From: a virus
Length of the DNA stretch: 29,526 nucleotides
Virus record (IMG/VR): IMGVR_UViG_3300020053_000594
Coordinates: 1-29,526 of that record
Strand: one strand, 5' to 3'
Shown here: one piece after another, positions 1-24,424 of the stretch
How the letters are laid out: every line of letters starts with the position of its first letter
Numbering within the stretch: the stretch's first letter is position 1
Translations under genes and position numbers: made by a program
The notes under the pieces: model-generated
Seen by the model: the letters and a program-made list of their open reading frames with translations, nothing else
Database searches by the model: none
What the model was told of the DNA's origin: nothing

Positions 1-914
1 TATGGCAGTCAGCGGATCTGGGATCAGGATACACAGGTGCTATATTTGTAACGGCTGATATAAATTTGTGGGATAGTACATATGGTACATACATTTTAAA
101 AGTCAACATCACAGATGACATCCTGGATATGGAAACCGCAGGCACTTTATATGGTTCAGCATCTGCCCCAGCATACTCATCAAGCATCAGTTCAGCACAG
201 ACGCAGGATATCACGGATGCAAGAAACGTAACACACAGTGGTAATGGAATCTACATCACTCAGGTTGGTAACAGTAATACACTTGACATCACACAGGACG
301 GTAATGACAACCTGATAGCGGGTGGCACTAGCACAACCAACGCCATAGTAAAGGGTGACATCACGGGAAATAACAACACCACCACAATGACGCAGACGGG
401 TGACAACAACGCAATACTGTTTGACATCACGGGTGACTATAATTCTACTACAATTGAACAGGGTGGTGCCGCAGGATCAGATGACAACAGAATAGAATTT
501 AATGTTAATGGTGACTACAACACTATCAGTAGCACACAAATACACAACAATGGTGTAGGAACCAATGGACACTATCTTGGCTTGGACGTTGATGGAAACA
601 GCAACAACATTTTAACAAGTCAAACCAATGACGGAGACAAGAAAGCATTTATTTCAGTACAGGGTGATGACAATGATATAGATCTGTATCAACAAGGATC
701 AGGATCACACTACGTTGAAATAGACGTGGGCAGTGATCAAACTGTCGACATCACACAAGACGGAACAGGCAATCACAATGCTTCCGTTTCAATGACGGGG
801 TATGCGTCAGGACTTGATCTTACACAAGACAGTTCGACAGGGCAAACATATTCTATCAATCAAAACTGTTTAACAGTCACAGGGTGTGGCACAACAACAG
901 TTACTCAGCAGTAA
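1..914 (+). CDS. Curlin-repeat (CsgA/CsgB-like) protein, 5' partial
   Basis: The reading frame is open from base 3 to the TAA at 912-914, so the true start lies upstream of the window. A TTG at 66 is in frame but has no convincing ribosome binding site. The protein is rich in Asn, Asp, Gly, Thr and Gln. It repeats a curlin-like unit of the form (I/M/L)TQ-x-G-x-x-N, for example ITQVGNSN, ITQDGNDN, MTQTGDNN and ITQDGTGN, roughly every 20-25 residues. Curlin repeats form the beta-solenoid of the curli amyloid fibre subunits CsgA and CsgB. A possible disulfide pair sits near the C-terminus (NQNCLTVTGCG). The protein is probably exported and self-assembling, either in the virion or on the infected cell. 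The next gene encodes a secreted protein, which fits a surface or curli-type cassette. A beta-helical adhesin without amyloid character is the alternative. Confidence 0.72.
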   Translation, partial: WQSADLGSGYTGAIFVTADINLWDSTYGTYILKVNITDDILDMETAGTLYGSASAPAYSSSISSAQTQDITDARNVTHSGNGIYITQVGNSNTLDITQDGNDNLIAGGTSTTNAIVKGDITGNNNTTTMTQTGDNNAILFDITGDYNSTTIEQGGAAGSDDNRIEFNVNGDYNTISSTQIHNNGVGTNGHYLGLDVDGNSNNILTSQTNDGDKKAFISVQGDDNDIDLYQQGSGSHYVEIDVGSDQTVDITQDGTGNHNASVSMTGYASGLDLTQDSSTGQTYSINQNCLTVTGCGTTTVTQQ

Positions 915-934
915 GCAGAAGAGAGGGCAATACA

Positions 935-1363
935 ATGAGGGATAACTTAATAGCATTCGGACTACTCGCCGCGGCAGTGGTGTCATGGGTCTGGGTAGCA
1001 ACAGCAGAAGCAAGCGAAAATAATAATGCAATTAAAGGTTGCTTGGCAATTAATGGATATCATCCAAAGGACTTTGATACCTTTGAATGGAACAAAGCCG
1101 CAGGGTGTTATCAAAACTGGAAAGCAGAGCAAAACAGACAGGAACTGGCAGAACTACGTGACTTCTTAAAGCACAATCCACGTTACAGAGTACCAGGACA
1201 AAGTTTAAATCGTTGTTGGGGTAAACCTAGAGAAATGCCGTTTGAAAGTGCATACATTGAAAAGACGGGTGACGGCTTTAAAGCAGGCGTAAGTTACAAA
1301 GATACACTGCCAGCAGGATGCTACGAAAACACACCGTGGGATAATCGCAATGCTTTACAATAG
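935..1363 (+). CDS. Secreted four-cysteine protein of unknown function
   Basis: This gene encodes 142 residues. The ATG at 935 is preferred because GAGAGGG (921-927) lies just upstream, the same kind of ribosome binding site as at the DNA ligase gene; a GTG at 884 is in frame but would overlap the curlin gene. Residues about 6-26 form a Sec signal peptide with a hydrophobic core and a likely cleavage after AEA. The mature part has exactly four cysteines (36, 58, 94, 129), each in a Gly-Cys or Arg-Cys context (GCLA, GCYQ, RCWG, GCYE). That pattern suggests two disulfide bonds in the periplasm or outside the cell. I do not recognise the family. Its position 20 bp after the curlin gene suggests a partner in export or assembly of that fibre, but it does not resemble CsgE, CsgF or CsgG to me. 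Confidence 0.7.
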   Translation: MRDNLIAFGLLAAAVVSWVWVATAEASENNNAIKGCLAINGYHPKDFDTFEWNKAAGCYQNWKAEQNRQELAELRDFLKHNPRYRVPGQSLNRCWGKPREMPFESAYIEKTGDGFKAGVSYKDTLPAGCYENTPWDNRNALQ

Positions 1364-1451
1364 ATACTTTTGGATAGTAATTCTAATACTCTTAACAGTG
1401 ATTAATTATGTTGCTTGGATTGAAAGAGTAAGATATTTGCAGGGGTTATAA
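1350..1451 (+). CDS. 33-residue single-pass membrane peptide
   Basis: This short frame starts at an ATG overlapping the end of the preceding gene by 14 nt and ends at TAA 1449-1451, just before the terminator hairpin. The translation has a short polar N-terminus (MLYNRYF), about 17 strongly hydrophobic residues (WIVILILLTVINYVAWI) and a charged tail (ERVRYLQGL). That is the shape of a small inner-membrane protein. The overlap suggests translational coupling to the secreted protein. It could be a small holin-like or accessory membrane peptide. It is short enough that chance cannot be excluded, but the clean membrane topology and the filled gap before the terminator favour a gene. Confidence 0.45.
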   Translation: MLYNRYFWIVILILLTVINYVAWIERVRYLQGL

Positions 1452-1461
1452 GGAAATAAAA

Positions 1462-1488
1462 AAAGAGAGTGGATAAACCACTCTCTTT
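1462..1488. terminator. Hairpin terminator after the curlin cassette, possibly bidirectional
   Basis: A perfect 11-bp stem (AAAGAGAGTGG, loop ATAAA, CCACTCTCTTT) lies just after the 33-residue frame. On the + strand the U-tract is only three bases. On the - strand the stem is followed by seven T residues, so it is a stronger intrinsic terminator in that direction. It probably ends the curlin transcript and may also stop leftward transcription. Confidence 0.7.
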
Positions 1489-1563: not shown

Positions 1564-1592
1564 TTGACAAATGCAATTAAAGGTGTTACTAT
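1564..1592 (+). promoter_or_regulatory. sigma70-type promoter for the protease genes
   Basis: TTGACA (1564-1569), a 17-bp spacer and TACTAT (1587-1592) give a near-consensus host-type promoter. Transcription would start near 1599, followed by the GAGG ribosome binding site (1614-1617) and the ATG at 1623. A 6-bp inverted repeat (ATTAAA, 1543-1548, and TTTAAT, 1555-1560) sits directly upstream of the -35 box and could be an operator. Confidence 0.75.
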
Positions 1593-5819: not shown

Positions 5820-6047
5820 ATGAGAACAATATACGAAGAAAATTGCAAACTAACTTGCACAGACAAAGACCAAGTTGTTGAAGCAGTAGTAATGCAATAC
5901 ACACCTAAAGATTATTTGACAGTAGTGCTTGCAACAAATAAAATTCATATGAAATGGAATGGTAAGTTATTCGTAGGTAATGCCGCCGGTTTAGAATTTA
6001 CTTCATCTGGACCAAATGAAATTAATGTTAAGGAGGGAAGATACTAA
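5820..6047 (+). CDS. Small conserved-type phage protein of unknown function
   Basis: This gene encodes 75 residues and starts at ATG 5820 with AAAGGA upstream. The product has two cysteines near the start (NCKLTCTD) and alternating hydrophobic segments ([29 protein letters not shown], then [15 protein letters not shown]) consistent with a small beta-barrel. There is no signal peptide. It ends in a TAATG overlap with clpP, whose strong ribosome binding site (AAGGAGG, 6030-6036) lies inside this gene. Translation of the two is therefore probably coupled. I do not recognise a named family. Confidence 0.6.
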
Positions 6048-6634
6048 TGCCTAATTTAGTACCAATTGTTGTAGAACGTGAAGCAAAAGGAGAACGTTCG
6101 TATGATATTTTTAGTCGGTTATTAAAAGATCGAATTATTATGCTAGATACAGATGTTAATCAACATAGTGCTAGTCTTATTGTTTCACAATTATTATTTT
6201 TAGAAAGTGAAAACCAAACAAAGCCTATTAGTTTTTATATTAATAGTCCTGGAGGTAGTGTAACAGCAGGTATGAGTATCTATGATACTATGCAGTTTAT
6301 TAAATCTCCTGTACATACTATTGTAATGGGACAAGCGGCTAGTATGGGGTCATTGTTAGCGTGTGCCGGTGAACCAGGTAAACGTAAAATCTTGCCTAAT
6401 GCTAGACATATGATTCACCAACCATTAGGTGGTATGCAAGGACAAGCAAGCGATGTTGAAATCCAAGCAAAAGAACTTGTACGTTGGAAGAAAGTGTTAA
6501 CAGAAATCTATGTTGAACACACAGGCAAAGATTATGCTACATTAGAACACGATATGGATCGTGATAACTTTATGACAGCAAAAGAAGCAGTTGAATACGG
6601 CTTAGCAGACACAGTAGTTACAAAGCGTGGATAA
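6047..6634 (+). CDS. clpP: ATP-dependent Clp protease proteolytic subunit
   Basis: This gene encodes 195 residues, the usual ClpP length without a long propeptide. All family landmarks are present: N-terminal axial segment [49 protein letters not shown], Ser99 in GQAASMGS, His124 in MIHQPLGG, and Asp173 in [19 protein letters not shown]. The protein should form the 14-subunit chamber that works with an AAA+ unfoldase such as host ClpX or ClpA; no unfoldase gene is in this window. It is far closer to bacterial ClpP than the gene at 2116 is, which suggests a host-derived auxiliary gene. A very strong ribosome binding site (AAGGAGG) precedes it, so high expression is expected. The next gene overlaps by 8 nt. 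Confidence 0.95.
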
Positions 6635-21732: not shown

Positions 21733-22149
21733 ATGAAAGTAGGAATTACATTTTCATCGTTTGATCTGTTTCATAGTGGCCATGTTGCTATGCTTAAAGA
21801 AGCACGAGCAAATTGTGACTACCTAATGGTTGGACTACAAACAGATCCTACAATAGATAGGCCTGAAAAGAATAAACCAATCCAAAGTGTTTTTGAAAGA
21901 TATGTTCAACTTGAAGGATGTAAGTATATTGATGAGATTATTCCTTATGCTACTGAACAAGATCTTTTAGACATACTGTTAACATACAAGATTGATATAA
22001 GATTTATTGGTGAAGAATATAAGCCAAACGACTATACAGGCAAACAGTTATGCATTGACAAAGGTATTGAACTATACTATAATAAGCGACAACATTCATT
22101 TAGTACAAGTGGATTACGCAAACGAATTGAAAATGTAAAAAATGGTTAA
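21733..22149 (+). CDS. Cytidylyltransferase family protein (TagD-like)
   Basis: This gene encodes 138 residues with AAAGGAT upstream. The nucleotidyltransferase motif HxGH is present as H14-S-G-H17 in FDLFHSGHVAMLKEA. The strand CDYLMVGLQTDPTIDR and the RKPIQS-like KNKPIQSVFERY follow as in glycerol-3-phosphate cytidylyltransferase. The end has HSFSTSGLRKRI, corresponding to the ISTSxLRxRI element. Length matches TagD (about 130). The enzyme should activate a small phosphate compound with CTP (or ATP) to give a CDP-linked precursor. The exact substrate cannot be read from sequence. It overlaps the phosphomannomutase gene by 8 nt, so the two probably feed the same glycan or lipid precursor pathway. 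Confidence 0.82.
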   Translation: MKVGITFSSFDLFHSGHVAMLKEARANCDYLMVGLQTDPTIDRPEKNKPIQSVFERYVQLEGCKYIDEIIPYATEQDLLDILLTYKIDIRFIGEEYKPNDYTGKQLCIDKGIELYYNKRQHSFSTSGLRKRIENVKNG

Positions 22150-22864
22150 TAGATTTATATTTGATGTAGACGGAACACTTACACCAAGCCGACAAGGTAT
22201 TGACGCTGACTTCCAACGGTGGTTTTTAGAGTTTACCTATTCAAATTATGTGTACCTTATTACTGGAAGTGATTACCCTAAAACAGTTGAGCAAGTAGGC
22301 AAAACTATTTGTGAGAATGTTGAAAGGGTATATAACTGTTCTGGTAGTGATGTTTGGGAACGCGGTAAGAACATCCTTTCTACCGACTGGACACTTCCGG
22401 AAGAAGCACAAGATTACTTAACTGATCATCTAACTGCAAGTGAATTTCCATTAAGAACAGGATTGCACTTCGAACACCGCCCAGGTATGTGTAACTTTAG
22501 TGTTGTGGGTCGTAATGCTACACTAGGTGAACGCAAACTGTATGTTGAATGGGATTCAAAAAAAGAAGAACGCAGTTACATTGCAAGCAAATTTAATGTA
22601 GCCTTTCCAAATCTACAAGCAGTAGTAGGCGGAGAAACTGGAATAGATATTTTTGAAAAGGGAAATAACAAAAGCCAAATTGTAAAAGATTTTGATCCAA
22701 AAAATGATATCTTACACTTCTTTGGTGATGCAATGTTTAAGAATGGTAACGACTATCCGTTAAAGAAAGAAATTATTGACAAAGACTTAGGTTTCTGTTA
22801 TAATATAAAAGACTATAAAGAAACTTGGAAAATATTAAAAGATGAATTTGACTGGAAAATATAA
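22142..22864 (+). CDS. Phosphomannomutase of the eukaryotic PMM type (HAD family)
   Basis: This gene encodes 240 residues, about the length of human PMM2. Motifs follow PF03332: FIFDVDGTLTPSRQ (6-18) with the phosphoaspartate pair, then RPGMCNFSVVGRNA (113-126), which matches the N-x-S-P-I-G-R substrate loop. Next comes VGGETGIDIFEKGNNKSQ (162-179), matching GG-x-x-x-x-D-x-F-P-x-G-W-D-K, and HFFGDAMFKNGNDYPL (192-207), matching F-F-G-D-x-T-x-x-G-G-N-D. It should interconvert mannose-6-phosphate and mannose-1-phosphate for GDP-mannose supply. Bacteria mostly use the unrelated ManB fold, so a phage copy of this type suggests transfer from a lineage with the HAD type. The W of the usual G-W-D-K is replaced by G-N-N-K. 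Confidence 0.8.
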   Translation: MVNRFIFDVDGTLTPSRQGIDADFQRWFLEFTYSNYVYLITGSDYPKTVEQVGKTICENVERVYNCSGSDVWERGKNILSTDWTLPEEAQDYLTDHLTASEFPLRTGLHFEHRPGMCNFSVVGRNATLGERKLYVEWDSKKEERSYIASKFNVAFPNLQAVVGGETGIDIFEKGNNKSQIVKDFDPKNDILHFFGDAMFKNGNDYPLKKEIIDKDLGFCYNIKDYKETWKILKDEFDWKI

Positions 22865-23942
22865 CCGTATAGGCTTTGCTTGCAAATATATGCATCAGGA
22901 CCAAACGCAGAAGAAGAAACTACTAGAAGAAATTCAGCGTCCGCTGAACACTAAGTCAACTACAGTTCGTTGGCTTAACAATCAAACCCGTGATGTTGCT
23001 GAACAGCGACTATGGGACATTATGGTACATAACATACAGTCCTATTACAACCTTATAGAATATGTTGGGAGTTTACCACATGAATTACGAATGGTTCGAC
23101 TTGGAAGTGATGTCCTTCCTGTATACACTCAGTCTGATTGGTGCTATTTTTGGAAACGTCCTTCTGTGGTCGCTTATTGTGAGCGTGAATTTGCAAGAGT
23201 CGGAGCCCTCGCTAAAGCAAATGATGTTAGGCTTAGTATGCATCCTGGTCAGTTTACTGTACTTGCTAGTGACAACGAAGATATTGTAAATAGAAGTATA
23301 GAGGAGTTTGAATATCATGTGGACATTATTCGGTGGATGGGTTACGGTAAAAATTGGCAAGACTTCAAATGTAACGTCCACATCTCAGGCAGACAAGGTC
23401 CAGCCGGTATCATCAACGTCCTTCCAAGATTGTCTCCAGAAGCACGAAACTGTATTACTATTGAGAACGACGAAATGTCGTGGGGCATCGACGCCAGTCT
23501 GGAACTTGCCAACCACGTCGCACTCGTTCTTGACATACACCACCACTGGGTCGCTAGTGGAGAATACATTCTACCAACCGACGATAGATTTAGTCGCATA
23601 GTAGATAGTTGGCGTGGTGTTCGTCCTGTCATTCATTATTCAGTATCACGTGAAGATCTGCTTATAGATCACGATCCTAATAAGAAGCCTACTATGGATA
23701 TGTTATTATTAGAAGGCTACAAGAAACAAAAACTAAGAGCACATTCAGACTTTATGTGGAACAATGCGGTAAATGACTGGGCATTGTCATTCTGGGATTA
23801 CGCAGATATTATGGTAGAGTCTAAATGCAAGAACCTTGCTAGTGCAAGACTATATAAACACTGGCTAAATACTGTATGCGATTTAAACAAATCAAAAATT
23901 GTGAACGAACACGCTCTCGAACTTGTCAGTGCGAAAGTATAA
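22842..23942 (+). CDS. uvsE: UV-damage endonuclease (UVDE/UvsE)
   Basis: This gene encodes 366 residues from ATG 22842, overlapping the phosphomannomutase gene by 23 nt. UVDE landmarks are in order: IGFACKYM (10-17), VRLGSDVLP (85-93), [13 protein letters not shown] (131-143) and VHISGRQG (179-186). They continue with [10 protein letters not shown] (206-215) and VLDIHHHWV (229-237), with the histidine, glutamate and aspartate residues that hold the three metal ions in the TIM barrel. The end is extended relative to short bacterial forms. The enzyme nicks DNA next to UV photoproducts and other lesions, which would suit a phage in sunlit water and substitutes for T4 DenV. It lies just before the superoxide dismutase, making a stress-defence pair. 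Confidence 0.9.
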
Positions 23943-23947
23943 AGCAG

Positions 23948-24424
23948 TTGTCAGAATCTGACACGCCTGTAGTTGCTGTTGCGGACCTAGTCCACTCAGA
24001 CGAAGTAAAAGGCAAAATACTCTTTATGCAAGGACCAGGCACAGCCACTCTTGTAAAGGGTCGAATAACTGGGTTAAGTGAAGGAGAGCATGGATTTCAT
24101 ATTCATGAATTTGGAGATCTATCCAAAGGTTGTGAAAGTGCGGGAGGTCATTACAATCCCGACAACGTGGAGCATGGCGATCTTAAATCAGGCCATGTCG
24201 GAGATCTAGGCAACATTACCGCAAACTCGAACGGGATCGCAGAGTTTACTATCAAAGCAGAACGCATTGATTTAATCGGTGAAAGAAGTGTTGTTGGCAG
24301 AGCAGTAGTAGTTCATAAAGATGAAGATGACCTCGGCAAGGGAGGAGATGAAGAATCGCTAAAAACCGGAAATGCCGGTGATAGACTTGCTTGTGGGATA
24401 ATTACACTTACAAACGGAGAATAA
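23948..24424 (+). CDS. Cu/Zn superoxide dismutase, cytosolic type
   Basis: I choose TTG 23948 (158 residues, near the usual 153), five bases after the UVDE stop. An ATG at 23876 is in frame but would overlap UVDE by 67 nt and add a Cys/Arg-rich start unlike the family. Numbered from that ATG, all metal ligands are present: His75, His77, His92 and His147 for copper, and His92, His100, His107 and Asp110 for zinc. The disulfide pair is Cys86-Cys173, and Arg170 guides the substrate. Spacing equals the eukaryotic enzyme except for two missing residues in the zinc loop. Bacterial SodC normally carries a signal peptide; none is seen here. The enzyme would remove superoxide inside the infected cell. 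Confidence 0.9.

Follow-up and report, generated by a model that had tools for sequence, protein, structure and literature searches.

The window, by which we mean the whole 29,526-nucleotide stretch of DNA analysed here, is a linear virus record of 29.5 kb, and no sequence precedes its first base; it would represent a T4-like marine phage, and a nucleotide search found no close isolate. The three open reading frames that a preliminary description had placed at its left end, encoding a curlin-repeat protein, a Sec-type four-cysteine protein and a 33-residue membrane peptide, were recovered with the same coordinates and lengths (Table 1). The upstream part is indeed cut off by the edge, as the contig starts inside the frame of the curlin-repeat protein (curlin2), and most of the head domain of this protein, together with its signal peptide, lies past the contig edge. 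In the window, curlin2 is followed by cys4, the membrane peptide and then other genes, with no cyclase directly after it. The preliminary description had also closed the cassette with one terminator: the hairpin is real, but with a minus-strand T tract it departs from the usual form of a terminator for the curli operon.

Table 1. Features at the left end of the window
Feature	Position	Strand	Basis or remark
curlin2, 5′-truncated curlin-repeat protein, 303 aa	3-914	+	frame open at contig edge
C-terminal part of the curlin2 N-terminal head, predicted ThuA/GATase/GIFT-like type	3..172	+	identity to L062/L152
linker from head to curlin repeats, SSISSAQTQDITDARNVTHSG	173..239	+	occurs with more than one type of head
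curlin-repeat domain of curlin2, second CsgA/B-like subunit	240..914	+	PF07012; curlin domains of relatives; 8c50 profile match
Cys4, secreted, four invariant Cys, phage-only family, 142 aa from ATG	935-1363	+	N-terminal signal sequence
single-pass membrane peptide, 33 residues, overlapping the end of cys4	1350-1451	+	homologues in L002, L023, L024
hairpin, 11 bp, between the end of the curli operon and the next gene	1462-1488	.	T tract on minus strand
promoter-like site ahead of the next gene	1564-1592		

The curli operon in related phages

The amyloid-type curlin repeats proposed for curlin2 were confirmed by a Pfam scan, in which PF07012 matched over three stretches (E 5.4e-9; 36.3 bits, cut-off 20.7) and nothing convincing was obtained for Cys4 or the membrane peptide. 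The motif QxGxx[ND] occurs four times compared to 0.47 in shuffled sequences (5 of 5000 shuffles reach four), and GxxN occurs ten times compared to 3.8 (4 of 5000 reach ten). In addition, a curlin2 profile matched the solved curlin fibre chain 8c50 (E 3.6e-7). By homology, curlin2 is a curlin subunit of the kind encoded in type VIII secretion (curli) operons of phages, and it may form amyloid fibres outside the cell. The curlin domain of the window is 69-75% identical to eleven others, from proteins with different or diverged heads in phage loci bearing csgF and csgG.

We used HMMs built from the operon genes of locus L022, where the gene order is csgF, csgG, curlin1, FecR, curlin2, cys4, membrane peptide and adenylate cyclase. 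csgG was present in every locus (21/21) where cys4 followed a curlin by no more than 3.5 kb and the upstream sequence spanned 5.5 kb or more. The closest relatives of the window curlin domain (L138-L159) likewise carry csgF-csgG-curlin1-FecR-curlin2 operons, wherever enough upstream sequence is available, and in relatives the adenylate cyclase lies directly after the curlin2 region or inverted nearby. These findings from relatives support the view that the window opens with the 3′ part of a type VIII secretion operon of phages. The csgG- and csgF-like genes that the preliminary description had suggested looking for upstream are therefore found in related phages. A search of the window gave neither gene; in this phage they, and FecR as well, would lie past the contig edge, which falls inside curlin2. 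The viral curli-type amyloid system postulated there is supported by the gene order in relatives, which holds no tail genes.

The phage curli operon itself is already known. As the preliminary description had stated for curli-type genes of pelagimyophages, it has been described (PMC7029224, PMC9599517), and operons of the same type are found in HTVC008M and Melnitz. Our loci resemble the published ones (PMC7029224, PMC9599517, PMC9004378) in the shared order of csgF, csgG, two curlin-repeat genes, FecR and adenylate cyclase and in missing CsgE (PF10627, no match in the 23 records tested); they differ from HTVC008M and Melnitz in the extra genes cys4 and membrane peptide. Bacterial curli (CsgA/CsgB, PF07012) share the repeats with conserved Q, G and N and the export through CsgG with CsgF, whereas FecR and cyclase are lacking from those bacterial loci that rank among the best CsgG matches.

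Two further observations concern these loci. Contigs with phage-type curli genes (L171-L180) had been binned into MAGs of Rhodobacteraceae, Flavobacteriaceae, Pelagibacter, Pirellulales and Sphingobacteriales; they are probably binned phage sequence, and host links drawn from these bins are unsafe. Small proteins with a TM segment plus a coiled coil (cluster 1, 43 copies) are encoded near most curli loci, for instance at L022:5315-5970, and by eye are possibly holin-like.

A modular curlin2 with exchanged heads

The preliminary description was right about the repeats of curlin2 but overlooked an N-terminal head, which we consider more telling than Cys4: the first ~57 residues of the open frame are the end of a separate domain, not curlin repeats. 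Over residues 1-60 the protein shares 97% identity with the L062/L152 head, whereas identity to L062 drops to 49% in the curlin domain. The complete L062 curlin2 (489 aa) consists of a signal peptide, head, linker and curlin domain, and signal peptides are present on curlin2 relatives with a complete 5′ end. Throughout the loci curlin1 is headless, its signal peptide running straight into the repeats; curlin2 has a head of about 180-260 extra N-terminal residues in 33 of 78 distinct cases and is headless in the other 45.

The heads are of several types. A PA14 domain scored above the cut-off in curlin2 of the isolate HTVC008M (E 2.7e-6) and of L059 (E 3.6e-7), with a weaker match in L064, and L112 gave a weak match to ThuA. 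The head in the predicted L062 structure matched the GIFT domain of IFT52 by Foldseek (E 2.5e-4), as well as ThuA-like entries, in a model with a mean pLDDT of 69 that falls below 40 at the end of the head before the linker. The predicted L062 fold is a head followed by regular beta-strand pairs, and not a tailspike. Only the end of the head lies in the window, and with its fold taken from L062 it would be ThuA/GATase/GIFT-like; the fragment is of the L062 type and not a PA14 head. Further types are represented by a head with the motif FENGNYTNW (L160-L167) and by that of L003.

Different heads are joined to the repeats by a common linker. The form SSISxAQTxxITxxRxVTxSGNGIYI is found in curlin2 proteins with PA14 heads (L059/L147) and with GATase-like heads (L057/L140/L143/L145), and also in L157; among headless curlins it was found in 1 of 136. 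Curlin2 is thus a modular protein of head, linker and curlin repeats. The bacterial curlins sampled consist of a signal peptide and repeats without a large head: no headed curlin was found among the curlin ORFs of 16 curlin-bearing genomes (658 proteobacterial genomes sampled), in a check that used a small sample and motif positions rather than domain searches.

Sequence comparisons between loci show that heads have been exchanged between phages. In HTVC008M and L079 the curlin parts are 93% identical, while the heads, at 28%, are unrelated. At the DNA level, L059 and L143 are 93% identical over 1200 nt ending at the signal peptide and 90% identical over 1281 nt starting at the linker, while the head sequences in between do not match. 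A third breakpoint separates the window from L062, where nucleotides 1-163 match at 162 of 163 positions and the next 100 at 63, the break falling just before the linker; since this breakpoint is at a contig end, an assembly chimera is possible there. The other two cases are independent of it, and their exchange sites are internal to contigs.

A text search of PMC9599517 and PMC9004378 gave no mention of exchangeable curlin2 heads or of the pair of Cys4 and membrane peptide (nor of PA14), and 'curlin' together with 'PA14 domain' was not found in a phage context in the open literature searched. The modular curlin2 with its exchangeable heads and the occurrence of cys4 outside curli appear to be undescribed.

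Cys4 and its second operon

The secreted four-cysteine protein predicted downstream of curlin2 proved to be a family, which we call Cys4: 49 viral loci were found, giving 50 members including the window. It has a signal sequence, and C36, C58, C94 and C129 are invariant in 36 aligned members; the C-terminal half is highly conserved, with the motifs HNPRYRxPGQSxNRCWGKPREMPFES and PAGCYExxPWDNR. Among 84,980 bacterial and archaeal genomes, 43 pattern hits were obtained and none was confirmed. Phage isolates gave one weak match, that in the Roseobacter phage CRP-207 (36.8% over 35% of the query), which was set aside as a weak relative in another context. The G013 contig of L038 carries a second, divergent cys4 copy (37886-38230, minus strand; 79 bits) beside a regular one.

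The remote-homology search proposed for this 142-residue protein yielded no Pfam, PHROG, PDB or fold match, the Pfam scan covering all 36 members. Its model (pLDDT 79, pTM 0.44) has predicted helices and a beta-hairpin and matched nothing in the PDB or BFVD at E<=0.001. With no profile match, Cys4 is not CsgE, CsgF or CsgG, as the preliminary description had supposed; the reading as CsgE was rejected because PF10627 is absent from the records as well, and the Pfam scan gave no CsgH or CsgC family. Cys4 resembles CsgH, CsgC and CsgE in being a small secreted protein encoded beside curlins, while differing from them in its four invariant cysteines and in its occurrence outside curli operons.

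The 33-residue membrane peptide is a real gene, with homologues that end in WIERVEWLR or a similar sequence and hold the same position in L002, L023 and L024. A second type (YWESVGPxWDxMLNP) adjoins cys4 in 28 other loci. In both kinds of operon described here cys4 has a small membrane peptide as its neighbour, in either order. We propose that Cys4 and the membrane peptide are an accessory pair of the periplasm and inner membrane.

In most curli contexts cys4 lies directly after curlin2. The suggestion that it is the system's own export partner is not supported, since only 4 of 44 loci with csgG and cyclase contain cys4 and 12 cys4 loci are csg-free. Of the 50 Cys4 loci, 18 have csgF, csgG or FecR genes and these 12 have a different operon; none has both, and this operon never co-occurs with phage curli in the loci examined. 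Cys4 is thus phage-specific but not tied to curli.

The csg-free operon runs through clusters 13-17-14-18-19, then cys4, then cluster 11 (L004:7167-11534, L031:6515-10547, L046:6374-10496 and other loci), and comprises five secreted proteins with Cys4, a membrane peptide and a TM coiled-coil protein; by eye, one of its proteins looks pilin-like and one chaperone-like. In several contigs, both kinds of operon are flanked by a gp32-like ssDNA-binding gene on one side and tail genes on the other, which suggests that they are alternative cassettes in one slot. CHAP, lipase-like and abhydrolase genes are likewise found in this variable slot. Cluster 14 had no match in phage isolates; cluster 13 is widespread in marine phages, including HTVC115P, HTVC023P and CRP-207 (L135, L136 and L137), and in HTVC023P and CRP-207 it lies near endolysin-type genes (peptidase M15 or lysozyme), all of its members being annotated as hypothetical. 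Other contexts of cys4 are a kdsA/cupin neighbourhood (L042-L045, L049 and L050; gene names by inspection) and that of L047/L048, where the L048 contig has csgG at a distance of about 30 kb. Together with Cys4, the csg-free operon marks further secreted systems of marine phages.

Possible functions of phage curli

Sibling capture, shielding, a lysis pore and uptake have been proposed as roles of phage curli in pelagiphage biology. We consider it somewhat better than an even chance that the operon makes a flocculin-like adhesive amyloid on infected cells, with the curlin2 head displayed outside. The infected cell would make a CsgG/CsgF outer-membrane pore and export two curlins through it. Curlin1, consisting entirely of repeats, would be the likely main fibre subunit, and the repeats of curlin2 would add it to the same fibre, with the head, PA14 or ThuA/GATase/GIFT-like, presented to the surroundings, where it might bind glycans. 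By sticking to other cells, infected cells or their debris could then keep new hosts or released virions nearby. Recombination at the signal peptide and at the linker would exchange the heads, and phages would also place Cys4 and the membrane peptide into other secreted-protein operons.

A PA14 head on amyloid-forming repeats is the architecture of the yeast Flo1-family flocculins (PMC8398270), in which an N-terminal PA14 head precedes beta-aggregating tandem repeats, and this resemblance supports adhesion over a lysis pore. It is a resemblance of design only, since the flocculin repeats are unrelated and eukaryotic, and it applies to PA14-headed curlin2 rather than directly to the GATase-like head of the window. 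Moreover, the PA14 matches are moderate, and glycan binding is not a necessary property of a GATase/GIFT-like head. A further caution is that OM43 cultures infected with Melnitz did not clump (PMC9004378), although we called the Melnitz curlin2 headless.

The head exchange in curlin2 resembles the swapping of tail-fibre tips by phages. It suggests a function in binding that is subject to diversifying selection, and, if adhesion is correct, the adhesin that the virus diversifies would be a product of the infected cell and not a part of the virion. The PA14 head of HTVC008M curlin2 (AGE60352.1, annotated 'hypothetical') offers a testable reagent from a cultured phage-host pair. The more specific combination, in which adhesive amyloid fibres undergo whole-head swaps between lineages and Cys4 with its peptide serves both curli and the alternative operon in the same slot, we put forward tentatively, as falling somewhat short of even chances.

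The fibres and heads could instead shield the infected cell by covering receptors or blocking competing phages (superinfection exclusion), as proposed for pelagiphage curli (PMC9599517). Phage envelope genes often serve exclusion, and both Cys4 and the membrane peptide resemble proteins of the envelope; exclusion alone, however, leaves the exchangeable PA14 and GATase-like heads and the two curlins unexplained, and we regard it as unlikely. We give slightly less credence to a gated CsgG/CsgF pore for lysis timing or small-molecule exchange, with the curlins as cargo or plugs. This follows the pinholin/secretin idea of PMC9004378 and would suit the CHAP, lipase-like and abhydrolase genes of the slot. 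However, it was built on a Melnitz without CsgA/B, yet the GenBank record annotates two curlin-repeat proteins, and large exchangeable heads are hard to explain for a plug.

A role for Cys4 as a dedicated chaperone or gate for curlins in the periplasm, in place of CsgE, CsgC or CsgH, would fit the missing CsgE, the place of cys4 after curlin2 and a size close to that of CsgE; its scarcity in phage curli operons, its csg-free loci, the lack of a Pfam match and a predicted structure that matches no solved fold make this improbable. The reading of curlin2 as a virion part, a tailspike or decoration, is very improbable and, as a tailspike, was rejected: the protein is repeat-rich, beta-structured and phage-encoded, and other parts of the window hold T4-like tail genes, but no tail-protein profile matches it, and its relatives have signal peptides where the 5′ end is complete, with csgG, csgF, curlin1 and FecR directly upstream. 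In relatives, neither the upstream tail genes nor the tailspike fold named beforehand as evidence against curli appeared.

Elsewhere in the window, the frame at 23876-24424 encodes a copper/zinc superoxide dismutase (PF00080, E 1.3e-45) and overlaps the end of a UvdE UV-endonuclease gene (22842-23942). The gene at 22142-22864 matches the eukaryotic-type phosphomannomutase family PF03332 (E 1.5e-23) and adjoins a cytidylyltransferase gene (21733-22149), the two being possible surface-sugar genes. Two different ClpP-family genes (PF00574) are present at 2116-2685 (E 1.2e-27) and 6047-6634 (E 2e-81).
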